A DNA stretch of 64,000 nt, from contig NZ_JAHBAH010000001.1 in the NCBI RefSeq assembly GCF_020510425.1, positions 372,001 through 436,000 on the forward strand, in the 5' to 3' direction. The first letter of the stretch is position 1, and every line of letters begins with the position of its first letter. The notes beneath the pieces are model-generated. The model did no database searches and was not told where the DNA came from. It worked only from the letters and a program-made list of their open reading frames with translations. The stretch comes from Quatrionicoccus australiensis (lineage in GTDB: Bacteria > Pseudomonadota > Gammaproteobacteria > Burkholderiales > Rhodocyclaceae). Made by a program: the position numbers and the translations under genes. Shown here piece by piece: positions 577 to 64,000 of this stretch.

Positions 577-596
577 CCTACGCATCAAGTAACCAA

Positions 597-623: not shown

Positions 624-636
624 CATGGAGTGACAA

Positions 637-939: not shown

Positions 940-1023
940 CACACAAATCGGCTGCACCTTGGAAACAGGGTGCATTAGAGATGGCATCCAGTGTCATCCC
1001 TAATGATTAACGTGGAGATTGAT

Positions 1024-2050: not shown

Positions 2051-2056
2051 TTACCC

Positions 2057-2130: not shown

Positions 2131-2176
2131 CAACTACTAATTACCAAGTGGATTAGTAGATAGTTAGGAGATTGAT

Positions 2177-3385: not shown

Positions 3386-4131
3386 CCACACTATCGAAAG
3401 AAGACGTTGTGCGGATGGCGGGAATCTCAGGTATCAGCATCGGTAATTCTGAGTCTTCTCCTTACCCTACCAATTTCCAGCTGCACGCCTTCGCCACCCT
3501 AGTCCGCGCTGACCTTGTGGCTGAGAACGAGCGGCTGACCGATAGCAACCAGATGTATCTTGATCGAATTGAGTATCTTGAACGCAAATACCGCTGCCAC
3601 AATGAATACGCAAAGCGCCCTATTCTCTACACAGATGGTGTAGATGGAGAGCAGTGCTGTCGCGATGATTTGTGGGCAGTAAGTACCGCAGAATTGAGCG
3701 CGATGACAGATCAACTAACCGCCACCCGCACCGCACTGGCCGCAGCAGAGGCGGATAACGAACGGTTGCGCATTGCCCTTGAGTACAAGCACGATTCCGT
3801 AGATGCGCTTATGACTTGGTGCGTCAAGAACGTTGATAAATGGGATTTTCCACAGTACGACGGCGTTGGCTATGCGATTGAAAAGATGCGCGATGCCCTC
3901 TCCAAGCCCCGCGACGACTCAGCCCTGCGCGAGATGATCGCCGGGGTTTATGAAGAGTGTGCGAAGGTGGCTGATCTGTTCGAGGAAAAAGCTGATGCGC
4001 TGAACGACTCAATCGCCGACGATGACGACGCGAACGAAGGCCGCAGCGAATACATCATGGGCAAAGCGACTGCATCCAGCCGGATCGCCAACGCCATCCG
4101 CGCACTGGCAGAGAAAGCGAAGGGGGAATGA
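3382..4131 (+). CDS. Phage coiled-coil hypothetical protein, 249 aa
   Basis: The protein has Leu/Glu heptad-like stretches around residues 45-75 and 110-135 (for example LTATRTALAAAEADNERL), between which lies a variable part with CC and DGVDGEQ. The C-terminal half is helical and acidic (SIADDDDANEGRSE). The layout recalls the variable Ea22-like proteins near integrase ends of lambdoid phages, but that is a resemblance only. The start overlaps the previous gene (ATGA) and the stop overlaps the next (ATGATG). Confidence 0.5.
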   Translation: MTTLSKEDVVRMAGISGISIGNSESSPYPTNFQLHAFATLVRADLVAENERLTDSNQMYLDRIEYLERKYRCHNEYAKRPILYTDGVDGEQCCRDDLWAVSTAELSAMTDQLTATRTALAAAEADNERLRIALEYKHDSVDALMTWCVKNVDKWDFPQYDGVGYAIEKMRDALSKPRDDSALREMIAGVYEECAKVADLFEEKADALNDSIADDDDANEGRSEYIMGKATASSRIANAIRALAEKAKGE

Positions 4132-4322
4132 TGGCAATCAACGACATTACCGGCGACACCATCGCATCAAAGCATCTATCCGGAGACGCTAAGCGCAGAT
4201 TTGACGATAGCTTTGACCGTATATTCGGCAAGCCTAGCGATGGTCAGTGCGAAAAGTGCGGAGGAATACTTATCCGCGACAAGTGCGAGTCTTGCAAGTC
4301 AGAACCCACACAGGCCGATTAG
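4128..4322 (+). CDS. Phage zinc-ribbon-like small protein, 64 aa
   Basis: The C-terminal half has CEKCGGILIRDKCESC, two CxxC knuckles typical of a small zinc ribbon. The N-terminal half is charged and probably helical. The first ATG overlaps the upstream stop; a second ATG follows directly at 4131. Such ribbons usually bind nucleic acid or protein partners, but the role here is unknown. Confidence 0.55.
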   Translation: MMAINDITGDTIASKHLSGDAKRRFDDSFDRIFGKPSDGQCEKCGGILIRDKCESCKSEPTQAD

Positions 4323-4346
4323 TCTGCATTTTTAACGGAGAGCAAT

Positions 4347-4646
4347 ATGCACAAGATTATGACGGTTGAAATGCCGGATGGCAGCAAATGGGGAGTGCCG
4401 GTAGAAATTATTGCCAGAAGCCGTGCTGCTCACTATGCACATGAGTTTGACGGCGACATTGAACGAAGCTTAGCGGAGGACACAATTCCACTGTTTGAGT
4501 CTGACGACTACGAGATTCAAGACTGGGCCGTTAATAACATGAACTGGGAAGATTTCGACGGCCATCAAGTAAAGATAGAGAGCGCCCCGTTGCCTGATTT
4601 TCAGGAAGCATGGATTAATGGAGAGAAGGGGTTTGTTGGCACATAA
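4347..4646 (+). CDS. Phage hypothetical protein, 99 aa
   Basis: GGAG about 8 nt before the ATG at 4347 supports the start. The product is acidic (IERSLAEDTIPLFESDDYEIQ segment, shortened here) with several Trp residues (DWAVNNMNWEDFDGH). I recall similar small proteins in phages of Proteobacteria, without known function. A terminator follows within 60 bp. Confidence 0.5.
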   Translation: MHKIMTVEMPDGSKWGVPVEIIARSRAAHYAHEFDGDIERSLAEDTIPLFESDDYEIQDWAVNNMNWEDFDGHQVKIESAPLPDFQEAWINGEKGFVGT

Positions 4647-4691
4647 CCTTGGAATAGCCGACAAACGCGGCGCTGACACACTAACCAACGA

Positions 4692-4712
4692 TCCCGCTGC
4701 GGCGGGATTTTT
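4692..4712 (+). terminator. Rho-independent terminator before the integrase unit
   Basis: The stem TCCCGC (4692-4697) pairs with GCGGGA (4702-4707) around the tetraloop TGCG and is followed by TTTTT (4708-4712). It ends the chain of small phage genes and separates it from the DUF4224-integrase pair. Confidence 0.75.
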
Positions 4713-4728
4713 AACGCCCGGATGAGAT

Positions 4729-4947
4729 ATGTTCCTTACTCAAGACGAGATTGAAACGCTTACCGGCTACGTTAAGCACAAGAAGCAAAGAGAGTGGCTT
4801 GCAAAGAATGGCTACTCATTCAAAGTTGCATGCTCTGGCCGCCCGATTGTTTCGCGAACTCATTCCGAGTCGCAGCTATCAGGATCGGCAAGCACGCAGC
4901 CGGCAAAGTGGGAGCCAAACTTTGACGCACTAAAGAAGGTGGCATAG
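4729..4947 (+). CDS. DUF4224-type phage protein, 72 aa
   Basis: The N-terminal sequence FLTQDEIETLTGYVKHKKQ, followed by WLAKNGYSFKV and GRPIVSR, matches the pattern of DUF4224, a small domain found next to phage integrases. Its position one base before the integrase start suggests an excisionase-like or integrase-regulating role; that is inference from position. It begins a separate unit after the terminator at 4692-4712. The last 25 residues are Ser/Thr/Pro-rich. Confidence 0.7.
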   Translation: MFLTQDEIETLTGYVKHKKQREWLAKNGYSFKVACSGRPIVSRTHSESQLSGSASTQPAKWEPNFDALKKVA

Positions 4948-4948
4948 C

Positions 4949-5953
4949 ATGTCAGGCTCAATGGGAAGACGCCGCCAATCAAACCTAGACCTTCCGCCAA
5001 GGATGCACCTAAAGTCTGGTGCATTCTATTACGTCACGACCACACTACCGAGAAAATGGATCAGGCTTGACGCCGATCTAACCAAGGCCCGTATCAAGTG
5101 GGCGCAGCTTGAGAATGGCGGATCAATCGGCGGATCGTTTTTCCCTGCTGTGCTTGTGCAATGGCTATCCAGCGAACAATACACAAAGCTTGCGCCGCTT
5201 ACTAAGCGCACCTATCAGACGCTGATAGACCTGCTTCCAACCGTATTTGACGGGCCTATGGAGATGATCAAGCCTGTTCATGTGGCAAGATTCATGGACG
5301 GCCATAGTTCAAAGTCTCAGGCAAACATCGGCAGAGTCATCCTGTCAAACGTGTTCGACTACGCTATCCGCAGAGGATTGATTGATTGCGTCAATCCTTG
5401 CAAGTCGATTAAGAAGCATGTGATTGAAGGTAGGACTCGGCACCTGAAAGACGATGAATTCCTGCTCATCAGAGAGAAGGCAAATCATTCTGTGCGCGTG
5501 GCGATGGACTTGGCGTACCTGACCGGCGCACGAATTACTGATGTATTGAAGATCAAGTTTTCAGACCTTCAAGACGATGGCCTGTACATCGAGCAGCACA
5601 AGACAGGGAAGCGCCAGCTTTTCGAGTGGTCAAAATACTTGCGCGAAGTCATCGCCAGAGCAAAGAAAATTCCACGGCCAGTCAAGAACCTGACGCACTT
5701 GCTTTGCACTAGGACAGGCAAGGCATATTGCTACTCAAGCTTCTATCAAGTGTGGGAAATCGCCGTCAGAAATGCCAAGGTGGAAGACGTTCATTTCCAC
5801 GATATTCGCGGGAATGCGGCTACCGAGGCAAAGAAACAGGGCCAAGATTATCAAGCAATCCTAGGCCATGCATCGCGTGCAATGTCTGAAAAGTACATCA
5901 AGGCGCGAGAGATTGAGAAAATCCAGACGGTTAAGCGATCTACAAAATTGTAG
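4949..5953 (+). CDS. int: Phage tyrosine-family integrase
   Basis: This 334-aa site-specific recombinase should insert and excise the prophage. The catalytic set of tyrosine recombinases is visible: Arg in LTGARITDVL, the HxxR box in HFHDIRGNAA, His in ILGHASRAMS and the nucleophile Tyr in SEKYIK close to the C-terminus. An N-terminal arm-binding region and a core-binding SAM-like region (around residues 55-150) precede the catalytic domain. It lies at the end of the phage segment, and its stop codon is part of an imperfect palindrome bordering host gene ppsR. This is the expected layout when the attachment site lies beside int. It is apparently intact. Confidence 0.93.
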   Translation: MSGSMGRRRQSNLDLPPRMHLKSGAFYYVTTTLPRKWIRLDADLTKARIKWAQLENGGSIGGSFFPAVLVQWLSSEQYTKLAPLTKRTYQTLIDLLPTVFDGPMEMIKPVHVARFMDGHSSKSQANIGRVILSNVFDYAIRRGLIDCVNPCKSIKKHVIEGRTRHLKDDEFLLIREKANHSVRVAMDLAYLTGARITDVLKIKFSDLQDDGLYIEQHKTGKRQLFEWSKYLREVIARAKKIPRPVKNLTHLLCTRTGKAYCYSSFYQVWEIAVRNAKVEDVHFHDIRGNAATEAKKQGQDYQAILGHASRAMSEKYIKAREIEKIQTVKRSTKL

Positions 5954-6005
5954 ATAACCAGCCACCAACAAACCGGAAACCATTGCAGCACAAGGCTTTT
6001 GAAAC
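5940..6005. other. Probable prophage-host junction (att region)
   Basis: The segment between the integrase end and the ppsR start contains CTACAA-AA-TTGTAG (5940-5953), which includes the integrase stop, then 52 bp of sequence without a tRNA gene. Base composition changes clearly across it. It is the natural place for one attachment site. The core cannot be defined without the other prophage end, which is outside the window. Confidence 0.5.
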
Positions 6006-6818
6006 ATGCAAATAAAACGCACCGTATTTTTCGTCTCGGACGGTACCGGCCTGACCGCCGAAGCGCTCGGCCACAGCTTGCTGACGCAGTTCGAGGAAGT
6101 CGAATTCAAGCAGATCCGCATCCCCTTCCTCGACAACATCGAGAAGGCGCAGGAAGCTGTTGCCCGCATCAATGCGCAGGGCGAGGCCGACGGCATGCGG
6201 CCGATCGTGTTCACGACGCTGGTCAATCAGGATCTGGCCGAAATCGTGCACCAGGCCGATGCCTTCTCGCTGTCCTACTTCGAGACCTATCTGTCGCCGC
6301 TCGAGGCCGAACTCGGCATCAAGTCCAGCCACACCATCGGCCGCTCACGCGACTCGACCGACAGTTCGGACTACAAGAAACGCATCGAGGCGATCAACTA
6401 CACGCTGGCGCACGACGACGGCATCACCGACCGCGACCTCGAGGAAGCCGACGTGATCCTGGTTGCCGTGTCGCGCTGCGGCAAGACGCCGACCTCGCTT
6501 TACCTGGCCATGCAGTTCGGCCTCAAGGTCGCCAACTTCCCGCTGATCCCGGAAGACTTCGATCGCGGCCGCCTGCCCAGCACGCTGGAAAAGCACCGCC
6601 CGAAACTGTTCGGCCTGACCATCCAGGCCGAACGCCTCGCCCAGATCCGCGAAGAACGGCGCGCCGCCAGCAAGTACGCCTCGTTGGCCAACTGTCGCTA
6701 CGAAATCGCCGAAGCCGAGAAGATGATGCGCCGCGAAGGTATTCGCTGGCTGGATTCGTCGACCAAGTCGATCGAGGAAATATCGACCACGGTGCTGCAG
6801 GAACTCAAGCTGCGCTGA
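6006..6818 (+). CDS. ppsR: PEP synthase regulatory protein (kinase/pyrophosphorylase)
   Basis: This 270-aa protein is of the DUF299/PpsR family. It inactivates phosphoenolpyruvate synthase by ADP-dependent phosphorylation of a Thr and reactivates it by Pi-dependent dephosphorylation. The N-terminal [11 protein letters not shown] (9-19) and the P-loop-like SRCGKTPTS (156-164) are the family signatures, and the length is normal. ppsA usually lies next to it in divergent orientation, but here the upstream neighbour is the prophage integrase. So the native promoter and ppsA may be at the far prophage end, and ppsR may now depend on phage-side sequence. A bidirectional terminator follows. Confidence 0.95.
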
Positions 6819-6842
6819 CCGTTAGTTCCCCGTTCTGGCATC

Positions 6843-6874
6843 AAAAAAAGCATCTGTTGGCAGATGCTTTTTTT
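6843..6874 (+). terminator. Strong hairpin terminator after ppsR
   Basis: GCATCTG (6850-6856) pairs with CAGATGC (6861-6867) around TTGG, flanked by seven A on the left and seven T on the right, so it can act in both directions. It lies 25 bp after the ppsR stop. Confidence 0.9.
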
Positions 6875-7039
6875 GCGCTCAAAAGCCCTCGTCAGCAAAC
6901 AGAAAAATACTGGCAATTTATGGTCAGAATTTGACTTGGCGCAACTCTTCCCCCGTATAGCAAGTGACAAGCAGCAAACAGAGGGGGCAAAATGGTCTTC
7001 GATCCCTAACGCCTTATTGCCAGGATTCCAGTATCGAAC

Positions 7040-35474: not shown

Positions 35475-35478
<4 letters not shown>

Positions 35479-38400
35479 GCATCCCTCATCTTCAAAGCTT
35501 CTTCGATATCCACTTCCACCACGCGCGAAACACCGGATTCCTGCATGGTGACGCCGACCAGCTGTTCGGCCATTTCCATCGCGATTTTATTATGGGAAAT
35601 AAATAAGAACTGCGTATTCGCCGACATTTTCTTCACCATGCCGCAAAAACGCTCGGTATTGGAATCGTCGAGCGGCGCATCGACCTCGTCGAGCAGGCAG
35701 AACGGCGCCGGGTTCAACTGGAACATCGAGAAAACCAGCGCAATCGCGGTCAGCGCCTTTTCGCCGCCGGAAAGCAGGTGAATGGTCGAATTCTTCTTGC
35801 CCGGCGGCTGCGCGATGACCTGCACGCCGGCATCGAGGATCTCCTCGCCGGTCATCACCAGCTCGGCGCGGCCACCGCCGAACAGTTCCGGGAAAAGTTG
35901 CCCGAAATGGCCGTTGACCGTATCAAAGGTGGTTTGCAGCAAGTCGCGCGTCTCGCGGTCGATGCGGCGGATCGCGTTTTCCAGGGTTTCCATCGCTTCG
36001 TTGAGGTCGGCCGCCTGCATGTCGAGGTAGCCCTTGCGCTCGGTCGCCGTGTCCAGTTCCTGCAAGGCGGCAAGATTGACCGCACCGAGTTCGGTAATCG
36101 CGTTGCCGAGCCGCGTGATTTCACCCTGCAGGCTGGCCGGTTTGGCGTTGCCCAATTCAGGCAGCAAGGCTGCCTCGTCTGCACCGGCTTCGAGCAACTG
36201 TAGCGCGAATTGTTCGGTATTGAGCGCCGCCGCCTGCTCCTTGAGCTTGAGCTCGCCGATCCGGACGCGCAGCGGTTCCAGGCCCTGCTCGATCTTCATG
36301 CGTTGTTCTTCGAGGCCGCGCAGCGCGTTGGTTGCCGCCTCCAGCGCATCGCGCTTTTCGGCCAGCGCCATTTCGCGCTCCTGGCGCAGTTCGAGCGCGA
36401 TCTGCAGGTTGTCTTCCATGACGTCGGCCGGCGCCGCCTCGACCTGCTCGGCGCATTGCGCCAAGTCCTTGCCGACCCGGTTCAGCTCGCGCTGCGCCGT
36501 CGCCTGCTGCGCGAAGACGTCCTGCAGCTTGCCCTGCGCCTCGCGCAGCGAGAACTGCGCCTCGCGCAAGGCGCGGTCGAAATCGGAATTGCGCTCGCGC
36601 TCGGCACGCACTGCCCGTTCGCACTCGTCGAGACGCGACTGGGCTCCGACGACAAGGACGCGGATGCGGCCGAGGCCGTCGCGCACTTCGGCGATCTTCT
36701 CGTCCGCCGCCATCTCGCGCTCGCGCTCGGCTTCTTCTTCCTCGGCCAGTTCGGCCATCTGTTCCTGCAGGCGTTCGCGCTGCTCGCGATGGCGCTCGAT
36801 CGCCTGGCTCAGCTTGACCACTTCGAGCTGCACGGCATGCACGCGCTGCTGACGGTCGGTGACGTACTGGCGGATTTCGCCGATTTCTTCCTGCTTGTCG
36901 CTGAATTGCTCGTCGAGCAATTCAACCTGCTCGCGCCCGGCTTCGGCCTTTTCGGCGAAATCGGCAATGCCGTCAGCCAGGCTTTCGATTTCCCGCTGGC
37001 GCTCGAGCAAGCCGTGCTCGCCCTTGTCGGGCGCAAAGAAATTCAGGCTGCAGCGGGTGATCAGGTCGCCGCCCTGGGTGACCAGCACTTCGCCGGGACG
37101 CAGTTCGCCGCGTCGGGCAAGCGCCGCATCGAGCGACTCGGCGGTGAGCACCGGCGCCAGCCAGTCGGCGAGCACGCCGGCCAGTTCGGGATCGGTGCAG
37201 CGCACGCGCTGGCCGAGATGCGCCGCGGTCGACGCCGTTTCCGGAGGCAAATCCGCCGGCGCCGGCAGCATCACGCTGAGCCGCGCCTCGGGCCGATCGT
37301 GCAGCCATTCGTCGAGCTTGCCGCTGTCGGCACAGGCAATCGCGTTGAGGCGTTCGCGCAGCACCGCTTCGACCGCCGACTCCCAGCCGGCTTCGACGTG
37401 AATCTGCTGCCACAGCGGCACGGCGGCATCGAGACCATGCCGGCGCAACCACTCGGGCAAGGTGCCGCTGTCGCGCACGCGCGCCTGCATCTGTTCAAGC
37501 GCGGCGCGGCGCGCCTGGCCGGCGGCCAGTTCGCGCTCGATGCGCTGCAGTTCCTCGCGCACTTGGCGGCGGCTGGCTTCGAGTTGCGGCAGCTCCTGCT
37601 GCAGTTGCTGCAGGTGATCCTGGTCGCCAGCCAGTTCCTCGCGCAGCAGGTCGAGCTCTTCTTCCTTCTCGGCGAGGTCCATGGCATCCGGCGCATTCTG
37701 GCCGCCGCCCTCGTCGCGCAGGCGTTCGCGACGCTGGACGATGCCCTGCAGGGCGCGCTGGGCGTGTGCCTTGTTGGTCAGTTCGACTTCGAGACGCTGC
37801 TCGGCGTTGGCGGTGCGGGTTTTCAGGCGCTGCAGTTCGTCGAGCGCCTGGGCGTGGTCTTCCTCGACCTGCGGCGCGATGTCCATCTGTTCGTTGAGGC
37901 GCTCGGCGGCTTCCTCGACCTTGAGACGGGCGATTTCCTCGGTTTCTTCCCATTTTTGCCGGTCGACCGCCAACTGCTCGGCGGTTTGCGTCCATTGCGC
38001 CAGTTCCCCTTCGAGCTGGACGATGCGCGCCTCAAGCTGGCTGCGCGATTCGCGGCGATGGCGGATTTCGGCTTCAAGCTTGGCAACTTCGGCATTGGCC
38101 GCATACATGTCGCTCTGCGCCTGATGCAGGGCGTCGCCGGCGGCGAAATGCGTCTCGCGCATGGCTTCGGCACGCGCCTCGGTTTCGCGCAGAGCGGCGC
38201 TTTGCGCTTCGAGATCGGTGGTGGCGCGCTCGACTTCGAGCGACAGGCGCTGGCGTTCGGCCTCGGCCTCGCGTTTTTTCAACAGCCAGAGAATCTGCTG
38301 GCGCTGCACCAGCTGTTCGTTCAGCGCGTGGTAACGGCGCGCCACTTCGGCCTGGGCGCCGAGGCGCTCGATCTGGTTACCGAGTTCCTGGCGAATATCC

Positions 38401-38984
38401 TCGACACGCAGCAGGTTTTCGCGCGTGTCCTCGAGACGGCCGTTGGTTTCCTTGCGCCGCTCCTTGTAGCGCGTCACGCCGGCGGCTTCTTCGAGGAAGA
38501 CGCGCAGGTCGTCCGGGCGCGCCTCGATGATGCGGGCGATCATGCCCTGGCCGATGATGGCGTAGGCGCGCGGGCCGAGGCCGGTACCGAGAAAGAGATC
38601 GGTGATGTCTTTGCGGCGGACCTTCTGGTTGTTGATGAAGTAGTCCGACTGGCCCTGGCGGGTCAGCGTGCGCTTCACCGAAAGCTCGGAATACTGCGTC
38701 CATTGGCCGAGGGCGCGGCCGAGCAGATTGTCGAAAATCAGTTCGACCGAGGCGCGCGACACCGGCTTGCGATTCGACGAGCCGTTGAAGATGACGTCCA
38801 TCATCGACTCGCCGCGCAGCTCGGAGGCCTTGGACTCGCCCAGCACCCAGCGTACGGCATCCATGATGTTGGATTTACCGCAGCCATTGGGGCCGACGAC
38901 GCCGACCAGCTGCCCGGGCAGGGCAACCGCAGTCGGATCGACAAAGGATTTGAAACCGGCGAGTTTGAGTTTGGTCAGTCGCAT
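35475..38984 (-). CDS. smc: Chromosome segregation SMC protein
   Basis: This 1169-aa ATPase folds chromosomal DNA. The Walker A GPNGCGKSN (31-39) is N-terminal, long coiled coils flank a hinge around 510-640, and the C-terminal head has the signature LLSGGEKALTAIALVFSMF and Walker B PFCLLDEVDAPLDD. Length is normal. It needs ScpA and ScpB partners, which are not in the window. It is transcribed away from the permease-kinase gene, 183 bp apart. Confidence 0.96.
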
Positions 38985-53688: not shown

Positions 53689-54042
53689 ATGGGGCGCCTG
53701 ACCACGCATGTACTCGACACCGCCAACGGCCGGCCCGCCGCCGGCATGCCCTTCACGCTGTACCGCATCGACGGCGCCACGCGCACGCAACTGCTCGCCG
53801 GCACGACCAACGCCGACGGCCGTTTTGACCCCCCGCTGCTCGAAGGCGAGGCGCTGACGCCGGGCACCTACGAACTGGTTTTCGCCAGCGCCGATTATTT
53901 CCGCGCCCTGGGTACCGAGTTGTCCGAGCCGCCCTTCCTCGACCGGATCAGCCTGGCCTTCGGCATTGCCGATGCAGCCAGCCATTACCACGTGCCCCTG
54001 CTCGTCTCGCCGTGGGCCTACTCGACCTACCGGGGCAGTTGA
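53689..54042 (+). CDS. uraH: 5-hydroxyisourate hydrolase (transthyretin-like)
   Basis: This 117-aa protein opens 5-hydroxyisourate to OHCU. Family marks are [16 protein letters not shown] near the N-terminus and the C-terminal YRGS. Length is typical for the tetrameric enzyme. The stop overlaps the puuD start (TGATG). Confidence 0.95.
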
Positions 54043-55226
54043 TGGACAGCGCTTACCTGATCGAAATCGGCTCGCTGCTGCTGCGCTGGTTGCACCTGAT
54101 CGTCGGCATCGCCTGGATCGGCTCGTCGTTCTATTTCGTCTGGCTCGACAACACGCTCAAGGCGCCGAGCGATCCCGATCTGATCGCCAAGGGCGTCGGC
54201 GGCGAGCTGTGGGCAGTGCACGGCGGCGGCTTCTACAACCCGCAGAAATACCTGGTCGCGCCCAAGAACCTGCCGGACGACCTGCACTGGTTCAAGTGGG
54301 AGTCCTACTCGACCTGGATCACCGGCTTCTTCCTGCTCGGCGTGCTCTATTACTCGCAGGCCGCGACCTACATGGTCGATCCGGCCAAGGCGGCACTGAC
54401 GCCGGGCCAGGCGATTGGCGTCGGCCTGGCAACGCTGGCCAGTGGCTGGCTGGTCTACGACGGCCTGTGCCGGCTGCTGATGAAGCGCAGCCTGCTGCTC
54501 TTCGCCGTGCTCTATTTCATCTTCGTGGTTGCCGTCGCCTACGTGCTGACCCACCTGCTCTCCGGCCGTGCCGCCTTCCTGCATGTCGGGGCGATGATCG
54601 CGACAACGATGAGCGGCAACGTCTTCTTCTGGATCATTCCCGGCCAGAAAACCACGGTCGCCGCCATGCAGCGCGGCGAGGTACCGGACGCCATCCACGG
54701 CCAGCGGGCCAAGCAGCGCAGCGTGCATAACAACTACCTGACGCTGCCGGTGCTGTTCTGCATGATCTCGAATCATTACGCCTTCACCTACAACCACCAG
54801 CAGGCCTGGCTGGTGCTGGCGGCGATCATGCTTGCCGCGGTGCTCATCCGCCATTTCTTCAATCTCAAGCACAAGGGCATTTTTGCCTGGCAATACCCGT
54901 TGACCGGTGGCGCCATCCTGCTTGCCGTCTTCGTCTGGCTGGCGCCGGCACCACTCGCCGTTTCGGCGGCCGCCGCACCGCAACTGGCCGACGTTCAACC
55001 GATCATCGCGGCGCGCTGCACCGGTTGCCACGCCACCGCACCAACGCTGATGCCAGCCGCGCCGGCCGGCGTGCTGCTCGACAATCCGGCCGCCATCCGC
55101 GCCAACGGCCCGCGCATCCTGGCCCAGGCCGTGCAGTTGAAGGCCATGCCGCTCGGCAACATCACCGCAATGACCGATGCCGAGCGCGCCAAACTGGCCG
55201 CCTGGGCGGCCGGCGGTTACCGCTGA
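54042..55226 (+). CDS. puuD: Membrane urate hydroxylase PuuD with cytochrome c domain
   Basis: This 394-aa protein has about eight to nine transmembrane helices (WLHLIVGIAWIGSSFYFVW at the start; SNHYAFTYNHQQAWLVL further on) and a C-terminal cytochrome c domain with CTGCH at 326-330 and possible axial Met369 in KAMPLGN. This is the membrane urate oxidase type that passes electrons to a cytochrome instead of making hydrogen peroxide. ATG at 54042 is coupled to uraH. A longer frame at 54012 lies within uraH. Confidence 0.9.
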   Translation: MDSAYLIEIGSLLLRWLHLIVGIAWIGSSFYFVWLDNTLKAPSDPDLIAKGVGGELWAVHGGGFYNPQKYLVAPKNLPDDLHWFKWESYSTWITGFFLLGVLYYSQAATYMVDPAKAALTPGQAIGVGLATLASGWLVYDGLCRLLMKRSLLLFAVLYFIFVVAVAYVLTHLLSGRAAFLHVGAMIATTMSGNVFFWIIPGQKTTVAAMQRGEVPDAIHGQRAKQRSVHNNYLTLPVLFCMISNHYAFTYNHQQAWLVLAAIMLAAVLIRHFFNLKHKGIFAWQYPLTGGAILLAVFVWLAPAPLAVSAAAAPQLADVQPIIAARCTGCHATAPTLMPAAPAGVLLDNPAAIRANGPRILAQAVQLKAMPLGNITAMTDAERAKLAAWAAGGYR

Positions 55227-55742
55227 TTACGGAGCAGCGCGATGCTTCTTCATCGGCGGCACGAACTGGTAGTCGATATCCCAGGGGAAGTAGATCCACT
55301 TGTCCTGGCTGAACTGCTTGACGCAGAGATCGACCACCTCGCGCCCCTGCGGCTTGGCGTAGAGCGTCGCGAAATAGGCCTTGGGCAGCAGCTTGCGGAT
55401 GACGCGCGCGGTGTTGCCGGTATCGACCAGGTCGTCGATCAGCAGAAAGCCTTCGCCATCGTGATCGACGCCCTTGAGTATCTTGACTTCCTTGCGTGCA
55501 GTCTGCGCCGCGTCGTCGGAAGCCGCCTCGTAGCTCGAAGCGCAGATCGTGTCGACCAGGCGGATTTCCAGCTCGCGCGCGACCAGCGCGGCCGGGATCA
55601 GGCCGCCGCGGGCGATGGCGATGATGCCCTTGAACGGTCCCTTTTCCAGCAATTGATGGCAGAGCAGGCGCGTGTCGCGATGCAGCTCCGGCCAGGAGAT
55701 CACGATATCGTCGCGGTAGGGGCTGGCGGGGGTATTTTCCAT
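55227..55742 (-). CDS. gpt: Xanthine-guanine phosphoribosyltransferase
   Basis: This 171-aa type I phosphoribosyltransferase resembles E. coli Gpt: KGIIAIARGGLIPAALVARE, the PRPP loop GFLLIDDLVDTGNTARV and the C-terminal KWIYFPWDIDYQFVPP, which is the characteristic base-binding part. It salvages xanthine and guanine, the same compounds that feed the urate pathway around it. It starts 50 bp from puuE on the opposite strand and shares that intergenic region. Confidence 0.92.
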   Translation of the reverse strand: MENTPASPYRDDIVISWPELHRDTRLLCHQLLEKGPFKGIIAIARGGLIPAALVARELEIRLVDTICASSYEAASDDAAQTARKEVKILKGVDHDGEGFLLIDDLVDTGNTARVIRKLLPKAYFATLYAKPQGREVVDLCVKQFSQDKWIYFPWDIDYQFVPPMKKHRAAP

Positions 55743-55792
55743 GGTGCATTCCCGAGAAAAAAGAATGGGCCGCAGTATAGTTGGAGGCAGCT

Positions 55793-56740
55793 ATGAGCCA
55801 TATACGCAAAACCGAATACCCGCGTGATCTGATTGGATATGGTGCGCGCCCGCCGCATGCCGCCTGGCCCGGCAATGCCCGGATTGCCGTGCAGTTCGTG
55901 CTCAATTATGAAGAAGGCGGCGAGAACTGCGTGCTGCATGGCGACGCCGGCTCCGAGCAGTTCCTCTCCGAGATGTTCAACCCGGCCAGCTATCCGGAAC
56001 GCCACCTGTCGATGGAGTCGATCTACGAATACGGCTCGCGCGTCGGCGTCTGGCGCATCCTGCGTGAATTCGAAAAGCGCGGCCTGCCGCTCACCGTGTT
56101 CGGCGTTGGCATGGCGCTGCAACGCCACCCGGAACTGACCGCCGCCTTTGTCGAACTCGGCCACGAAATCGCCTGCCACGGCTGGCGCTGGATCCACTAC
56201 CAGCATGTTGACGAAGCCATTGAGCGCGAGCACATGCGCCTGGCACTGGAGGTCATCGAACAGATGACCGGCCAGCGCCCGCTCGGCTGGTACACCGGCC
56301 GCGACAGCCCGAACACGCGCCGTCTGGTCGCCGACGACGGTCGACTGCTCTACGACAGCGATTATTACGGCGACGACCTGCCCTTCTGGACCGAAGTCAC
56401 CAAGAGCGACGGCACGCCGGTGCCGCACCTGATCGTGCCCTACACGCTCGACACCAACGACATGCGTTTTTGCCTGCCGCAAGGCTTCAGCCACGGCGAT
56501 CCGTTCTTCCAGTATTTGAAGGACAGTTTCGACGTGCTCTACGCCGAAGGCGACGAATCGCCCAAGATGCTGTCGATCGGCATGCACTGCCGCCTGCTCG
56601 GCCGGCCCGGCCGCTTCCTGGCGCTGCAACGCTTTCTCGACCATATCGAACAACACGACCGGGTCTGGGTCTGTCGCCGCCTCGACATCGCCCGCCACTG
56701 GATCGCCACCCACCCATACCGCAAGGACTCCGCACTATGA
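55793..56740 (+). CDS. puuE: Allantoinase PuuE (polysaccharide-deacetylase-like)
   Basis: This 315-aa protein belongs to the cofactor-less allantoinase type of the NodB fold. [43 protein letters not shown] and [15 protein letters not shown] match the family. It converts allantoin to allantoate. GGAG precedes the ATG at 55793. The stop overlaps alc by ATGA. Confidence 0.93.
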
Positions 56741-57768
56741 GCGACGCTGCGCCCATCGTTTCCGCCCCCGCCACCCTGCCCGACTGGGCGACCCGTTCGG
56801 TGAACCTCGCCGACGCCCGCATCGGCGCGCGCGCCATCGCCGCCAGCGACGAATTCTTCGCGCCGCTCGAACGCCTGCTCAACCCGGAACCGGCAGTGTT
56901 CATCCCCGGCAAGTACGACGCCAACGGCAAATGGATGGACGGCTGGGAAACCCGCCGCAAGCGCACCGCCGGCTACGACTGGAGCCTGGTCAAGCTCGGC
57001 CGGCGCGGCATCGTGCGCGGCTTCGACGTCGACACCAGCCACTTCACCGGCAACTTCGCGCCGGCCATCTCGATCGACGCCACCGATTGCGAATCGGACG
57101 ACCCGGCCGTGCTCGCCAACGCCCGCTGGACGCGCATCCTGCCGTCCACGACCTTGTCGGGCAACAGCCATCACCTGCTCGAAATCAGCAGCACCGACAC
57201 CTGGAGCCACCTGCGCCTGAACATCTACCCGGATGGCGGCATCGCCCGCCTGCGCGTCTATGGCCAGCCGGTCGGCGTCTTCGATGCCAACGAGCCGGAA
57301 CGTATCTACGACCTCGTCGCGCTGGAAAACGGCGGCCGCGCCGTGGCCTGGAACGACGCCCACTTCGGCTGCGCCGCCAACCTGATCGCGCCGGGCCGCG
57401 GCATCAACATGGGCGACGGCTGGGAAACCCGGCGCCGGCGCGAACCCGGCAACGACTGGTGCATCCTGCAACTGGGCACGCCCGGCAGCATCGAGCGCAT
57501 CGAAGTCGACACCGCCCACTTCAAGGGCAACTACCCCGACCGCTTCTCGCTGCAGGCGGCGCGCATGGACGGCGGCACCGACCAGTCGGTGATCACGCAG
57601 AGCATGTTCTGGCCCTTCCTGATCAGCGAACAGAAGCTCTCGATGGACGCCATCCACACCTTCAGCGGCAACCTCGCCGACCTCGGCCCGGTCACGCATG
57701 TGCGCCTCAACATCATCCCCGACGGCGGCGTCTCGCGCCTGCGCCTGTGGGGCAAGGTGGCCTGGTGA
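56737..57768 (+). CDS. alc: Allantoicase
   Basis: This 343-aa enzyme splits allantoate to ureidoglycolate and urea. Two repeats of the same fold are visible: each has DGWETRRKR or DGWETRRRR, then [12 protein letters not shown] or [12 protein letters not shown], and [16 protein letters not shown] or [16 protein letters not shown]. Length is normal. The stop overlaps the GTG start of allA. Confidence 0.96.
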
Positions 57769-58259
57769 AAAAGCTCGTTCCGGAAGCGTTGACCGCTGCC
57801 GCCTTCGCGCCCTTCGGCGACGTCATGGCGGTCGACGCCGCAAAAACGCCGATTTCCATCAACGGCGGCAACACCGAGCGCTACCACGACCTGGCCAGAC
57901 TCGACGCCGGCCCGGACGGCAAGCTGATCGTCAGCATCTTCCGCGGCCAGCCACGCTCGCTGCCCTTCGCCGTCAGCATGATGGAACGCCACCCGCTCGG
58001 CTCGCAGGCCTTCATGCCGCTCGGCAACCAGCCCTACCTGGTCGTCGTCGCCCGCCCCGGCCCGGCGCCCGGCCCGGACGACCTGCGCGCCTTCCTCGCC
58101 CAGCCCGGCCAGGGCGTCAATTACGCAACCGGCGTCTGGCATCACCCGCTGCTCGCGCTCAATGAAATTGGCGATTTTCTGGTGGTCGACCGTTCAGGGC
58201 CGGGCAACAACTGCGACGAAGTCAGCATCGAACCGCCAGTCAGCCTGAGCCTGGATTAA
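57765..58259 (+). CDS. allA: Ureidoglycolate lyase
   Basis: This 164-aa cupin-like enzyme gives glyoxylate and a second urea. Family segments are [42 protein letters not shown] and [10 protein letters not shown]. The GTG start at 57765 overlaps the alc stop (GTGA) and fits the family N-terminus; no ATG is available there. It closes the urate to urea route. Confidence 0.93.
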
Positions 58260-58345
58260 TCGGGCAAACCCGGCCGGCAACAAGGCGCGCGAAGCGGGCA
58301 GCGTAAAATGGCGGCGCCCTCCGCCCTCACCTTGTTTCCCGCCCC

Positions 58346-58939
58346 ATGGCCCAAACCCTCGCCGCGCCCGTCCATAGCGAACTGCTAATCAAGAAAAGCC
58401 GCTTCCTCGGCTGCGTGCAACCGGTCGCCGACCGCGCCGCGGCGCAGGCCGTCATCGCCCAATTGCGCGCCGCCCACCCCGGCGCCGCGCACGTCTGCTG
58501 GGCCTTGCTCGCCGGCGGCCAGTCGGCCGCGGTCGATGACGGCGAACCGAGCGGCACCGCCGGCCGCCCCATGCTCGAAGTGCTGCGCCACCAGGATTTC
58601 GACGGCGTGCTCGCCAGCGTCGTGCGCTACTACGGCGGCATCCAGCTCGGCGCCGGCGGCCTGCTGCGCGCCTACACCGACAGCATCGCCCAGGCCCTGC
58701 GCGACGCCCGCAAAATCCCCATCGTCAAGCAACGTGAACTGCGTTGCGAACTGCCCTACGCGCTGGAAGGCCTGCTGCGTCGCGAAATCGAGGCGGTCGG
58801 AGCAAGCCTGACCGGCATCGAGCACGGCGCGCAGGTGAACTGCGTTTTCCGGCTGGCGGAAAGTGAAGCCCCCGCCTTGATCGCCCGGCTCAATGAGGCT
58901 GGGCAAGGACGGGTTGTTTGGCTGGAGGATGGGGTTTAG
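58346..58939 (+). CDS. YigZ/IMPACT family protein
   Basis: This 197-aa protein shows SRFLGCVQPVADRAAAQAVI, ALLAGGQSAAVDDGEPSGTA and VVRYYGGIQLGAGGLLRAY, the conserved core of the IMPACT/YigZ family; a C-terminal DUF1949-like half follows. The bacterial role is not settled; links to translation have been proposed. It has no evident tie to the allantoin genes before it, from which it is separated by 86 bp. Confidence 0.9.
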   Translation: MAQTLAAPVHSELLIKKSRFLGCVQPVADRAAAQAVIAQLRAAHPGAAHVCWALLAGGQSAAVDDGEPSGTAGRPMLEVLRHQDFDGVLASVVRYYGGIQLGAGGLLRAYTDSIAQALRDARKIPIVKQRELRCELPYALEGLLRREIEAVGASLTGIEHGAQVNCVFRLAESEAPALIARLNEAGQGRVVWLEDGV

Positions 58940-59257: not shown

Positions 59258-59287
59258 ATGGCGAGTTTGATTCGCGACCATTTATGA
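59258..59287 (+). CDS. 9-codon leader ORF upstream of STAND nuclease
   Basis: The frame MASLIRDHL ends in TGA (59285-59287), which overlaps the ATG of the large gene at 59284 (ATGA). It has a strong Shine-Dalgarno (AAAAAGGA, about 6 nt before its ATG), while the large gene has none of its own. Translation of the big protein may thus depend on re-initiation after the mini-ORF. Whether the peptide itself matters is unknown. Confidence 0.45.
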   Translation: MASLIRDHL

Positions 59288-62200
59288 CGAAATTTGTCGG
59301 AATCCCAAATCGTGACGCGACAGCCAGCATTCGTGGGTATGTCTATCAGATATACCAAAGCGTGTTGGCCTGGATGCTCCTCGGTGAAAACGAAGTCCTC
59401 GTTCTGGAAGGTGCTGAGGACTTTGATGTTCAGTCAGGGTTATCAATTGTAACAACTCAAGTCAAACATCAGTCCGGTAATGTCACACTACGTTCATCGG
59501 CGGTGGTCGATGCCATCAATAACTTTTGGATCCACCAACGGAGCAATACCGATTTTCAAGTTACCCTCCGCTTCCTCAGCACAGCGGAGGCTGGTTGCGA
59601 GCAAGGCGCCCCGTTTGGATCGGATAGATGTGGACTGGAGTATTGGCGTTCCACTGCTCACGGCGCGACGGACGGTGAGAGTCTGCGCCAGTTTTTCCTC
59701 ACGTTACCCCTCGATGAAGCTCTGCTCGAGTTCATTCGTTCGGCTTCAGCAGTCGCTCTATGCGATCGCCTCCTTGCCCGCATTCAGTGGGACTTGGGTT
59801 CAAAAGACACAGCGGCACTCCAATATGTAATTGAAAACAAGCTGAAAGTGCATGGGGCGAAACGGGGCATTAACACTCACTATTCGACCCATGCGCTCCC
59901 ACATCTTCTTAAAAGAGTCGCCGACCTTCTAACAAAAGATGGGTTGAAGCAACTTTACTATGGCGATTTTCTAAGCGCTTTCGATGAAGCGACAAGTGAG
60001 GTGATTCCTCGTGGCGCCCTGGACGCCATGCAAAATTCCGGTGCTATGCAGTTGACTTTTAGGATGCAAGAGGCCGGTGAGATTGCGCGCCTCGCGGCGA
60101 TGCCACCTAGCTTGGGTACCCCTCTCCCCAGGGTCAGGGGCGCAATTGGCCGGGCCAATCTTGTTAGTCGAATTGCGGCACTATTAAAGTCGACAAAGAC
60201 TGTTTTCCTTTACGGGAGTAGCGGTGTCGGAAAGACAAACCTAGCCTCGTTAGTCACAGAAGAGATCGGTGGCGCATGGCTTTGGGCAGGATTTCGCGGG
60301 CGTTCCCCTGAACAAGTTCGGGAGGGGCTAACAAGAGCAACATACGAGATCGAATCCGTCGACGATCCTATCCTTATGGTTCTTGATGACGTTGAACTCG
60401 GTCGTATCTCTCAATTTGAGCGGGAGTTCGTTGCTCTTATCTTTGCGGTAGCGCAACGAGATGGCCTTGTCCTGATTACGGGCATTGCTCGACCGCCTTT
60501 GCAGCTTTTCCCCAAATTATGGCTGACAACCGACTGCGAGGTACCGGTTCCGTACTTCGACGAGTCTGAGGTCAATCATTTGCTTTTGGAACATGGGCTA
60601 TCCGACAGCAGACTGCGGGAGGGGTGGGCGCGTGTCATCTTCCTGTCCACGTATGGGCATCCTCAATTGGTTCATGCGAGAGTACGAACCCTAAGTGCCC
60701 AAGGTTGGCCGCCAGTAACGCTTTCCGACTTAACCGGAAGTGAGGACATAACAAGGGTTCGCCAGGAGGCGCGCCAGCGATTGCTTGAGCAATTCCCCAG
60801 CGACGCAACGCGTACGCTGGCGTACCGCTTAAGTGTGATAATTGGGTCGTTTTCTCGACAAACAGTCATTGCTGTCGCGAATGCCCCGCAAGCGATTCCA
60901 TTGGCCGGAGAAGCATTTGACCACCTTGTTGGGCCGTGGATTGAGCGAGAAGATGAAAATCGCTTCCGAGTATCTCCCCTGCTTGGAGGGGCTGCTGAGA
61001 CAGTTCTGCCGCCCGGCGAAATTAAAGCTGTCCACGTTGCGATAGCGCAAAACTACCTTGGCAGGCGCACCCTAAATCAGTATGAACTCGCCACCGCATT
61101 CTTCCATGCATTCATGGCGAAAGACCTAGCAACATTGGCGGCGATTGCTAATGGCATTGTCTTGGAAGATGGCGAGCATATTGGCCTGCTATATGATGCG
61201 ATGACGTGGTTCCCGCATCTTGCTCTGGAAGCCGGCCAGCGGATCGTCGAAGAAAATCCGAACGTTGATTTGTTGCTCCGTTTGGCTCAATTCAGATTCG
61301 TCACCTCATCAGTCAATACGGAGAATGCGTTAAAGATTGTCGATCGTCTGGAAGAGCTTCTGGCGGCAATGGAAGACTCCAGCCTGAAGAAGATGTCCGA
61401 GGCGATGGTCTATGGGGTTGTCTTAAATACGATCGACATTCATATTCCGTCGCAAACCGTTGTTCGGATGTTGTCCTGCTTGATCGATACGGCGACGACA
61501 CCAGACCTGAAGGATATTTATGCAAATCTGGGGCGGAATCGTCCACCTGGGATGCCTCGCATAGGAAGCGACCGGCCGGAGCAACTGCTGTTCTCCTACC
61601 AAGCAGTTCGTTTGAGTGGGCTAGATGATCTTGAGGCACTCGTTGCATCCCTAGATGAACTCCCTAAGGACAAGCGTGATTTGCTTCTTGGTGTATGCGA
61701 TTCGGATATTTGTTTTGCCTCCCTCCTCATTGGAAATGCTTGGTGGTCCGATGTAAAAGATGGATTGCTTGATGTCGGCAAAGCTTTAACCGTACTTAAG
61801 ACTGTCGAACTAACATCGCGGTGCTGGGGAGCCAATGAAATTGTTCAGGCATGCCAGGTTGCGACCTCAGTCATACACGATGAGTACGGTAATTCTGCTG
61901 AGAACGCATTGGCAGTGCTCGATAAAGCTGAGGCCGAATTTCCAAACATTGCAAACCTGGTCAACCAGCGAGCCAAGGTGCTCTTCCATGCAAAACGCGA
62001 GCTGGATGCAATACCTATTGCCGGAAAAGCGTTGTCCTTGCCAGGACTCTCGAATGTCGAGTACGTGTATACCTGCCGCCATGCCGGGATAGCGGCCGCA
62101 AATCTTGGAAACTGGGCACGTGCGACGGAATTCTTCGAAACGGGATCCCAACGCGCATTGAAGTCGACTGTGCAGAAACCCATGGGTATTGGCTTGATGG

Positions 62201-63339
62201 CTGACGCTGCATTCGGCTACTGGAAGCAAGGCAAGCAGCAACAGAGCATTTCTAGGTTTGCAAATACGCTTGAATTACTGGAACCTGTCCCGGTTACAGA
62301 CGACATCAAACTGCGCAATCTCCACGCCACAGTTCGCCATTGCGTAACTTGGATTCACCTTGAAGCGGTCAAGGAGCGATCAGAGCATATAGCCGAACCG
62401 CGCCCCGGAATGTGTAGTAACCAGGAACCGCATGAGGGAATTAAGAGCCATAGGATTGTCGCGATATCGGGAGCTTGGGCGCTTCTGCGTAGTACCGAAC
62501 AAGCGCTTGGCCTAGATTGCGGAATTCGGACACATGCAGACAAATTCTCCGAGGCAGAGCAGCCTCTCTTCGTTGCGGGATACCAGCGAACTGTAGCGTT
62601 TGAGGCTGCCCTAAAAACCCCCCCTTGGGATGGTTTGGTCTCAGCGTATGTACGAATGCACGAGGCGATGCATTACTCCAAAGCACTCAGGATTGAAGAG
62701 CGCGAAGAGGACGGCTGGCAGCTTGGGGAAATCCCACCACTGCCGGAGGATTACTGGAGAAAGCCGGGAAATTGGGGGCTAACGTATCAAATATTCTTGG
62801 CTGCCTGCGTGAATTGTTTGGCTCGCCATCCCGACCAATCATTCCCCGTTGAGCAGTGGCGAGCAGATTTGTCCACACTAGCTCCATTACCCAGCGAAGT
62901 CGCGCAGTTTTTGGATGTTCTTGAAGGCTGCTCGGCCGATGAATCTTTATGCCAGAAGCTTGGTGCTGGGTTGGTTGCGCTACACCATGGTCCCGTTTCG
63001 GCGGATGAATTATGGAAGATATCCTTCCGGCTTCTGAATGCTCTTGAACCAGTAAAGCGATGGATTGAACTAGATGCTGAAACGTTGGCAATCAGGAAAT
63101 GGCTTTTTGCGGTCGATAATCAGCAGTTTGCTTTCGCAGCCCCCCGGATGGCTATTCCCGCAATTAAGGCTTCATGTGTGGACAACTCTCTAAACGGACT
63201 GGCGAAGGTCGCTACAGTGCTCTCTATTGCTGCGCCTTATCTGTCAATTCGGATGTCAGTTGAGGCAAGGGCGATGCTAACAAAAATCGCTGCGACCCCG
63301 ACAGGGGACTCAACGGTCAGGAGTCCCCAAAATTGCTGA
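59284..63339 (+). CDS. STAND NTPase with Cap4-like nuclease, candidate antiphage protein
   Basis: This 1351-aa protein has an N-terminal DUF4297/Cap4-type nuclease. Its RGYVYQ (17-22), LEGAEDFD (41-48) and TQVKH (58-62) match the PD-(D/E)xK pattern with Glu/Asp and Lys61. A STAND-type P-loop NTPase follows, with Walker A GSSGVGKT (311-318), Walker B ILMVLDDVE (363-371) and a sensor-like ITGIAR (398-403). A winged-helix part ends near 600. The remainder (about 620-1350) is alpha-helical, TPR-like and probably senses a ligand. This layout is that of Avs-type antiviral proteins. It stands alone between YigZ and DsbA genes, and its base composition is AT-richer than theirs. The defence role is inferred from domains; no phage target can be named. 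Confidence 0.8.
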   Translation: MTKFVGIPNRDATASIRGYVYQIYQSVLAWMLLGENEVLVLEGAEDFDVQSGLSIVTTQVKHQSGNVTLRSSAVVDAINNFWIHQRSNTDFQVTLRFLSTAEAGCEQGAPFGSDRCGLEYWRSTAHGATDGESLRQFFLTLPLDEALLEFIRSASAVALCDRLLARIQWDLGSKDTAALQYVIENKLKVHGAKRGINTHYSTHALPHLLKRVADLLTKDGLKQLYYGDFLSAFDEATSEVIPRGALDAMQNSGAMQLTFRMQEAGEIARLAAMPPSLGTPLPRVRGAIGRANLVSRIAALLKSTKTVFLYGSSGVGKTNLASLVTEEIGGAWLWAGFRGRSPEQVREGLTRATYEIESVDDPILMVLDDVELGRISQFEREFVALIFAVAQRDGLVLITGIARPPLQLFPKLWLTTDCEVPVPYFDESEVNHLLLEHGLSDSRLREGWARVIFLSTYGHPQLVHARVRTLSAQGWPPVTLSDLTGSEDITRVRQEARQRLLEQFPSDATRTLAYRLSVIIGSFSRQTVIAVANAPQAIPLAGEAFDHLVGPWIEREDENRFRVSPLLGGAAETVLPPGEIKAVHVAIAQNYLGRRTLNQYELATAFFHAFMAKDLATLAAIANGIVLEDGEHIGLLYDAMTWFPHLALEAGQRIVEENPNVDLLLRLAQFRFVTSSVNTENALKIVDRLEELLAAMEDSSLKKMSEAMVYGVVLNTIDIHIPSQTVVRMLSCLIDTATTPDLKDIYANLGRNRPPGMPRIGSDRPEQLLFSYQAVRLSGLDDLEALVASLDELPKDKRDLLLGVCDSDICFASLLIGNAWWSDVKDGLLDVGKALTVLKTVELTSRCWGANEIVQACQVATSVIHDEYGNSAENALAVLDKAEAEFPNIANLVNQRAKVLFHAKRELDAIPIAGKALSLPGLSNVEYVYTCRHAGIAAANLGNWARATEFFETGSQRALKSTVQKPMGIGLMADAAFGYWKQGKQQQSISRFANTLELLEPVPVTDDIKLRNLHATVRHCVTWIHLEAVKERSEHIAEPRPGMCSNQEPHEGIKSHRIVAISGAWALLRSTEQALGLDCGIRTHADKFSEAEQPLFVAGYQRTVAFEAALKTPPWDGLVSAYVRMHEAMHYSKALRIEEREEDGWQLGEIPPLPEDYWRKPGNWGLTYQIFLAACVNCLARHPDQSFPVEQWRADLSTLAPLPSEVAQFLDVLEGCSADESLCQKLGAGLVALHHGPVSADELWKISFRLLNALEPVKRWIELDAETLAIRKWLFAVDNQQFAFAAPRMAIPAIKASCVDNSLNGLAKVATVLSIAAPYLSIRMSVEARAMLTKIAATPTGDSTVRSPQNC

Positions 63340-63412: not shown

Positions 63413-64000
63413 TCAGACGCCACAGCCATTAATGTCGCAGACCGGCGCATCACCCGCATTCCCGCCCTTCGCCCCCGAAACCTGGCCGCGCAACCAATCC
63501 TGAAAAGCTTGCGGCTGGCCCAGGTAGCCCCCGATGTCGATGCGCTGCAAGACGCCATCAGTTTCGAGCACGAAGCAGGGAAAGCCGCGGGCGCCCACTT
63601 CGGCCATCAAATGCCGGGTTTCCTCGATGTGACGCTGGACAGCGGCGCCGGATTGTTGCGCAAAGGCGGCGGCAAAGGCCTGCGTGTCGAGGCCGAGCTC
63701 GCCGGCGACTTCGTTCAGGGTGCTTGCTTCGGCAATCCGCCGGCCTTCGACGTAATGCGCGATCTGCAGTTGCGCCAGCATGTCGAGCCCGCGCCCGGCG
63801 ATCGCTTCGGCGGCCAGGATGGCCGCCGTGGGCGGTTCTGAATCGAGTACGACGCCGCTGGCGTGCAGCAGGCCGTCAGCGTAGGCCGGGCCAAAGGGCT
63901 GGCCGGTCAGTTGCGCGATGCGCGCGTCGTGCTGCTTGACGTAGGCGCGCAGTTGCGGCGTCACCTGCTGGCGGTTGGCGCCGGTCATCATGCCGCCGCC
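63413..64000 (-). CDS. DsbA-family thioredoxin-fold protein, 5' end outside window
   Basis: The frame runs past the right edge, so the N-terminal part with the CxxC active site is missing. The visible 196 residues begin GGMMTGANRQQVTPQLRAYV, which I recall from cytoplasmic DsbA-like (FrnE-type) proteins of about 210 residues. The helical insertion and the C-terminal cis-Pro region GARGFPCFVLET fit. The C-terminus is Cys-containing (DAPVCDINGCGV). Function unclear; possibly disulfide chemistry or dithiol-based isomerisation. Confidence 0.75.
   Translation of the reverse strand, partial: GGGMMTGANRQQVTPQLRAYVKQHDARIAQLTGQPFGPAYADGLLHASGVVLDSEPPTAAILAAEAIAGRGLDMLAQLQIAHYVEGRRIAEASTLNEVAGELGLDTQAFAAAFAQQSGAAVQRHIEETRHLMAEVGARGFPCFVLETDGVLQRIDIGGYLGQPQAFQDWLRGQVSGAKGGNAGDAPVCDINGCGV

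Follow-up and report, generated by a model that had tools for sequence, protein, structure and literature searches.

The gene at 59284..63339 (+) of the window, a 64,000-nucleotide stretch of Quatrionicoccus australiensis (contig NZ_JAHBAH010000001.1, positions 372,001 to 436,000), encodes a 1351 aa protein made up of a predicted Cap4-like nuclease, a STAND NTPase and a helical half with tetratricopeptide repeats (TPR). The best reading is that the protein is probably a self-contained Avs-like antiviral STAND sensor-nuclease and belongs to a new family, with an activity that is predicted. In hand are the domain order, the catalytic and NTPase residues and their conservation, the defence neighbourhoods of relatives, a patchy distribution across phyla and an NTPase-repeat scaffold that also occurs free of the nuclease. 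The first-pass annotation of the window had read the gene as a single-gene Cap4/STAND/TPR defence candidate, and this reading is supported; neither the nuclease match nor the gene context contradicts it. The open reading frame (ORF) is intact, starts with ATG and runs without interruption at exactly the coordinates, strand and length given to it then. It is the only copy in the 4.3 Mb, two-contig genome.

N-terminal nuclease domain

The Cap4/DUF4297-like nuclease core spans residues 9-125 (59308..59658, +), and residues 1-125 are the best conserved region of the protein. In a single-sequence PADLOC scan, the core matches LmuA at 9.3e-11 (residues 9-106) and DUF4297 at 2e-6. The NCBIfam model DUF4297_antiphage (NF042945) gives a local match of 6.9e-9 whose score, 35.2 bits, is far below the full-protein cut-off of 300. 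In 16 relatives (query included, E<=0.001), PADLOC finds LmuA in 12/16 and DUF4297 in 7/16. Pfam PF14130 has no match in the window protein at E<=1 and is matched in 2 of the 16 relatives at E<=0.01. Judged from these models, the window protein carries a DUF4297-type domain, yet it is not the DUF4297 protein itself.

A profile made from a 20-row family alignment of residues 1-280 was compared with all PDB sequences (E<=5) and results in 9 matches, the top three of which are all DUF4297 nucleases (8xav, 5.9e-8; 8ziq, 3.3e-5; 9c1m, 0.011). The catalytic motif E42...D46...Q59-V-K61 (residues 42-61; 59407..59466, +) is defined by row conservation and by alignment to 8xav, where D46/Q59/K61 fall onto D40/Q53/K55 (counted from chain residue 2). 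The 8XAV entry is the DUF4297-HerA structure (PMC11291478). Mutation of the PD-(D/E)xK motif is reported there to lower the nuclease activity of DUF4297, and disruption of the nuclease site to abolish defence; the mutant described for the growth assays is D40A/Q53A/K55A (PMC11291478). Over the 20 aligned rows E42 and D46 are each conserved in 20/20, Q59 in 19/20 and K61 in 16/20.

The PD-(D/E)xK-like N-terminus proposed earlier holds for the nuclease and for E42, D46 and K61. It does not hold for D48, which is D in only 9/20 rows, and the well conserved Q59 had not been named. The nuclease match called for in residues 1-160 was found with the family sequence profile, in which the catalytic residues are aligned; the AlphaFold2 (AF2) model of residues 1-660, with only four rows as input, has a predicted local distance difference test (pLDDT) score of 43.6. 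The Pfam, PADLOC and NCBIfam scans of the window protein return no other output domain. A less conserved linker, residues 126-279 (59659..60120, +), joins the nuclease to the NTPase; it is delimited by conservation per region and by a relative (L048) that is split near profile position 290.

STAND NTPase

The middle of the window protein is a STAND-type NTPase as judged by its Walker A and B motifs, its GxP motif and a GPWIE...SPLL block. This nucleotide-binding oligomerisation domain (NOD) takes up residues 280-600 (60121..61083, +) and consists of the NTPase, a helical domain and a presumed winged helix; it is set by these motifs and by hhalign matches to two plasmid proteins described below. 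The Walker A motif is GSSGVGKT (residues 311-318; 60214..60237, +), with G316 and K317 each conserved in 19/19 rows, and the Walker B motif is LMVLDD (residues 364-369; 60373..60390, +), with D368 in 18/19 and D369 in 19/19. The STAND GxP motif is present as GHP (residues 458-460; 60655..60663, +), with G458 in 19/19, H in 18/19 and P460 in 17/19. The P-loop NTPase of the first-pass annotation is thereby confirmed.

The GPWIE...RVSPLL block (residues 548-567; 60925..60984, +) has L548, G550, W552 and L566 invariant in 19 rows. The block sits where a winged helix is expected, within the N-terminal half modelled at the low pLDDT given above. Against the PDB, the NTPase profile matches the TPR-sensor STAND PH0952 (6mfv) at 8.4e-6, a match that ranks below generic AAA+ ATPases among the best 60 of 139. 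The reported parts of PH0952 are a nucleotide-binding domain (NBD), a helical domain with GxP, a winged helix, an arm and a TPR sensor (PMC6468293). For residues 372-640 there is no credible PDB relative among the 4 matches at E<=10.

C-terminal candidate sensor

The C-terminal half begins with a variable helical arm or first sensor part, residues 601-846 (61084..61821, +), which AF2 models as helical at low to medium confidence and which is variable by conservation. It is followed by the TPR core, with TPR matches spanning about residues 847-1060 (61822..62463, +), and by a C-terminal helical part, residues 1061-1351 (62464..63336, +), which is helical in the AF2 model and is the least conserved region of the protein. 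The AF2 model of the whole half is helical but for isolated residues, with a mean pLDDT of 65.9 and 209/792 residues below 50. Searched with this model, Foldseek returns generic TPR or superhelical proteins with a very large root-mean-square deviation among the matches listed, and VIA-align returns TPR folds. The 730-residue helical-repeat C-terminus described at first is therefore modelled as helical but for isolated residues and contains TPR, but the remainder is matched to no repeat family. The remark that this half resembles no named family stands, since nothing beyond generic TPR was found. A loop motif, PGMCSNQEP (residues 1041-1049; 62404..62430, +), occurs as PGxxSNPEP or a near variant in many relatives. 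This loop is kept within an otherwise fast-evolving sensor.

Modularity of the scaffold

The relatives include proteins in which these parts are separated. In L048, the nuclease (profile positions 6-293) and the NTPase-sensor (290-1333) are separate ORFs, and L018 has a split-off sensor. Two distant proteins align to the NTPase profile across about 300 columns, one from a plasmid of the cyanobacterium Aulosira laxa (L021; hhalign 99.8%) and one from a Priestia aryabhattai plasmid (L022; hhalign 99.4%). The Cap4 nuclease profile aligns to neither of them. Since both proteins have the NTPase without a nuclease match, the NOD-repeat scaffold exists with and without a Cap4-like effector. In the Priestia protein (L022:8347-12171), about 200 residues precede the shared NTPase; they do not match Cap4 and begin with a glycine-rich hydrophobic stretch, and this N-terminus is possibly a different effector.

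Defence neighbourhoods of relatives

Many relatives of the gene adjoin known defence genes. In a first survey, 29 suspicious neighbouring proteins picked by hand at 14 loci were scanned with PADLOC, and 9/14 loci have a neighbour matched at 1e-20 or better. At L002:2171-14011, BREX genes (PglX, PglZ and BrxL) precede the homologue, which starts 57 bases after brxL on the same strand; SbcC/SbcD-like genes, recognised by eye, come next on the other strand. The other matches at this level are a CBASS 4TM effector (L010), Gabija (L011, L013 and L015), an LmuB-like, Lamassu-like protein (L012, 9.1e-34), Qat (L014), a type III restriction-modification (R-M) system adjoining a C-terminal fragment of the family (L023) and PD-Lambda-4_A (L047). 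Weaker matches are an AbiLi/AriA-like protein in L008 (1.7e-13) and PDC-S66 in L019 (7.7e-12). No PADLOC match at 1e-20 was found among the hand-picked neighbours of L009, L017 and L018. The loci L016, L020-L022, L046, L048, L049 and L051 lie outside the set scanned for neighbours.

Because hand-picked neighbours are biased, an unselected survey was made of the 8 longest mechanically called ORFs around the homologue on each of ten plasmids, with the 8 longest ORFs on the opposite side of the same plasmid as controls. At a threshold of 1e-20, the 80 ORFs around the homologues match 129 PADLOC models, many of them redundant, and the 80 control ORFs match 2 models. Of the 129, the 25 listed are nearly all alternative GajA/GajB models, each matched by two ORFs. 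At least five of the ten plasmids have a hit (L010, L011, L012, L014 and L015). The annotations of the control windows have one short 'DNA methyltransferase' coding sequence and otherwise no product that bears the name of a defence system.

Four of these loci (L012, L014, L015 and L023, all Agrobacterium plasmids) are not fully independent, since they share one hotspot with a site-specific integrase and an RHE_PE00001-family gene. The cargo of this hotspot is seen as Lamassu-like plus SIR2, Qat, Gabija and type III R-M genes, each with a family member or fragment. The homologues are thus not consistently found in housekeeping operons, an outcome that would have spoken against a defence role; many adjoin BREX, Gabija, Qat, CBASS, PD-Lambda-4 or R-M genes.

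Distribution and transfer

Full-length homologues at 49-52% identity are present on four contigs, two of which are identical over the ORF. Plasmid homologues at 24-32% identity occur in 17 records, of which only 2 reach >=80% query coverage in one place. Together these homologues exclude chance as the source of the gene's features.

The relatives are rare and patchy in distribution. The gene is matched in 2/369 genomes of the class and in 1/399 of the order, where the only match is its own genome; the order sample includes 5 further genomes of its genus and 7 more of its family, all without a match. In the phylum it is matched in 2/398 genomes, its own and G1100, which has a C-terminal fragment. 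The family of G1100 has matches in 6/341 genomes, two of them with fragments only, and a further small genome sample has a match in 1/4. With the NTPase profile, the class of G1100 has matches in 2/376 genomes, one being a fragment of 59 positions. These prevalence counts are lower bounds, with only a few first-look candidates scored per genome. No relative is present among 50,697 phage records, and searches of viral contigs with the window protein, L014 and L009 gave no confirmed relative.

A 16-row tree places the window gene in a 100/100 clade with L002 (Pseudomonadota), L003 (Myxococcota) and L005 (Thermodesulfobacteriota), phyla as labelled, and the plasmid relatives in Paraburkholderia and Janthinobacterium lie apart from this clade. 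The deepest forks of the tree are weak and several end branches are long. The phylum labels carry a caveat from the binning of metagenome-assembled genomes (MAGs): the ORFs of L004 (a MAG labelled Shewanella) and L005 (a MAG labelled Geopsychrobacter) are identical over all 4173 bases, so one of the bins is probably contaminated. The rarity in the order and class and the cross-phylum clade support horizontal transfer. The transfer suggested by the first-pass annotation is accordingly upheld by distribution and phylogeny, and not by conserved flanks.

Local setting of the window gene

The GC content of the gene is 0.522, compared with 0.674 over 56000-58939 and 0.668 in the downstream gene. Among the 43 other mechanically called ORFs of the window, 3/43 have a lower GC and 2/43 a lower GC at third codon positions (GC3). 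The gene is therefore AT-rich relative to its near flanks, as first described, but not uniquely so within the window. The two flanking genes had been taken for conserved host genes; they are in fact rare in the genus, the upstream gene (58346-58939) being matched in 4/40 genomes and the downstream gene (63413-63991) in 6/40 (E<=1e-20, own genome included). Read by eye, without a family search, they look YigZ-like and DsbA-like. The only other genome with both is G1128, where they occupy different contigs. Since the flanks are rare in the genus and separated in G1128, neither an insertion boundary nor a target-site duplication nor an empty site is definable at the window locus. Repeats at the gene borders are short and chance-like only, and the window contains no tRNA that could serve as an integration site. 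A promoter scan finds 1 site against 3.4 expected, which is uninformative, and terminator-like sites number 9 against 4.8 expected.

By eye, the region around the gene is one of purine catabolism: it is flanked on either side by ureide, adenosine, guanine and xanthine genes, at 54012-58260 within the window and on L036 outside it. At the other end of the window, positions 1-7000 form a low-GC stretch with a tyrosine recombinase (integrase) at 4949-5950, which matches an NCBIfam XerA-type model at 1e-8, below the cut-off, and, read by eye, an exonuclease-like ORF at 46-573. This stretch resembles the border of an integrated element or prophage.

Comparison with known systems

By its domain plan the window protein is an antiviral STAND candidate that resembles the Cap4-type Avs proteins. 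Like the Avs (AVAST) nuclease-STAND proteins, it has an N-terminal Cap4-type nuclease, a central STAND and a long C-terminal helical repeat in a single gene, and its relatives lie in defence-rich neighbourhoods; the effector-STAND-repeat plan shared with Avs proteins, as pointed out at first, is thus found in one protein. Avs2 carries a Cap4 effector, and Avs3 is longer than the window protein. A Cap4 effector is also reported in Avs3 (PMC11291478). Unlike the Avs proteins, the window protein has no Avs-named match, no credible PDB relative of residues 372-640 and a sensor that is generic TPR only. No Avs-named model was found for the query in PADLOC or NCBIfam at E<=1, where NCBIfam holds Avs5 (NF041814) and the presence of Avs1-4 is not demonstrated, nor in 16 relatives with PADLOC (0.001) or 6 relatives with NCBIfam (0.05). 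The earlier suggestion of a new subfamily agrees with these results, and an own NOD family within the antiviral STANDs is proposed because no Avs-named model matched.

The window protein shares with HerA-DUF4297 the nuclease domain and its catalytic D/Q/K, but its nuclease is fused to a STAND-TPR and, by reading, no HerA is present among the adjacent ORFs. It shares with Lamassu the N-terminal LmuA match, but is a fused STAND-TPR protein. Membership in Lamassu is rejected since no LmuB (SMC-like) partner was found beside the gene on reading the adjacent ORFs without a family search; an SMC-like ORF some 20 kb away (35478-38984) reads as the chromosomal Smc. A simple transcription regulator is likewise rejected, as no DNA-binding output domain is matched in Pfam, PADLOC or NCBIfam. 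The PH0952-type STAND (6mfv) is similar in its NOD, TPR sensor and GxP motif; it differs in that its NBD is listed from residue 102 on, with no nuclease named in the excerpted source (PMC6468293). The hypothetical proteins of L021 and L022 have the same NOD, including the GxW...SPLL block, and weak C-terminal TPR matches, but their effector is absent, separate or different. Among the open-access papers listed by literature searches, no title or abstract describes the family, which is weak evidence of novelty.

More tentatively, and perhaps about one time in three, the family may constitute an undescribed class of antiviral STANDs. Such a class would have its own NOD (GHPQLV, GPWxE...SPLL) and the PGxxSNPEP sensor loop, with the NOD found in Pseudomonadota, in MAGs labelled Thermodesulfobacteriota or Myxococcota, and in Deinococcota, Cyanobacteriota and Bacillota. 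It would exchange its N-terminal effectors and sense a component of the phage that is not one of the known Avs1-5 triggers (terminase, portal, Ksap1 and JADA).

Proposed mechanism and alternatives

The residues needed by analogy with Avs, in both the nuclease and the NTPase, are present in the window protein. In the proposed mechanism, the closed state would be an autoinhibited monomer that is kept shut by the C-terminal helical/TPR half, which is also the likely binding site of an infection cue, probably a protein of the phage. Once bound, the cue would free the STAND NTPase from its ADP-held closed form. Oligomerisation driven by ATP would then join the N-terminal Cap4-like domains as active dimers, and these dimers would cut the double-stranded DNA of phage and host, so that the infection is aborted. 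The oligomerisation, the ADP/ATP switch, the nuclease activated by dimerisation and the abortive outcome are carried over from established families. Nuclease Avs proteins are reported to recognise terminase or portal and then to cut phage and host DNA (PMC12931631). In Avs3 the STAND domain is reported to join the nuclease domains (PMC12198126), and a similar dimerisation is reported for DUF4297 (PMC12198126, PMC11291478).

Several points weigh against an antiviral sensor-nuclease. No defence neighbour of the window copy was recognised on reading the window ORFs, and this copy reads as standing alone in an apparently metabolic neighbourhood; by eye, none was recognised in L003, L005 or L007/L050 either. 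In the unselected survey, the control ORFs include mad3 in 5/80 (best 1.4e-36) and PDC-S24 in 1/80 (2.5e-203). The contrast by ORF count is weaker than that at the level of models, and it is small unless mad3 is generic; the mad3 model is taken as a generic ABC-type ATPase model. The best Pfam NTPase match, AAA_16, reaches 6.3e-5 and 24 bits against a curated cut-off of 32.6, and over the Walker region generic AAA+ ATPases are the best PDB matches of the NTPase profile (best 60 of 139). The nuclease fold and the winged helix are drawn from sequence profiles. K61 is replaced by R in 4/20 rows (L008, L012, L015 and L016), which suggests that nuclease activity has changed or been lost in some family members, and certain copies may cut weakly or not at all. 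The virus collections searched yielded no virus-borne copy, and no antiviral assay of any family member was found.

It is unlikely, though worth considering, that the same machine has plasmids or other mobile DNA as its target, or is fired by a host cue such as DNA damage or the loss of another defence system instead of by a phage protein that it binds directly. Many copies are plasmid-borne, so competition between elements is possible, and the L002 copy directly behind BREX genes could serve as a reserve triggered by inhibition of BREX. Published STANDs include some with non-phage inducers, such as MalT (PMC10427625). However, the known nuclease-STANDs are reported to sense phage terminase or portal (PMC12931631), and the evidence gathered ties the family to no host signal and to no fixed partner gene.

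It is very unlikely that the gene is an orphan or decaying passenger, swept in by transfer and without a present function in its host. The gene stands alone with a GC unlike that of its near flanks, and its relatives include fragmentary and split copies; yet it is full-length and uninterrupted with all catalytic and NTPase motifs kept, and full-length relatives at 49-52% identity keep these motifs too. Least probable of all is a regulator in which the N-terminal nuclease fold has lost catalysis and serves to bind DNA or nucleotide: the K61 replacements, the variable D48 and the inactive restriction endonuclease domains described in BREX helicases (PMC12839542) would fit it, but the window protein retains E42, D46, Q59 and K61, the E and D do not vary in any of the 20 rows, no region is better conserved than the nuclease core and no other output domain is matched.

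If the window protein is an antiviral STAND sensor-nuclease, it would extend the known bacterial counterparts of the NLR immune receptors by a family that is distinct in sequence, compact in its single-gene layout and equipped with an interpretable catalytic triad. Since relatives at about 20-52% identity are available, trigger mapping and domain comparisons would be straightforward. The BREX-linked L002 copy would also make it possible to test a STAND as the back-up of a modification-based system.

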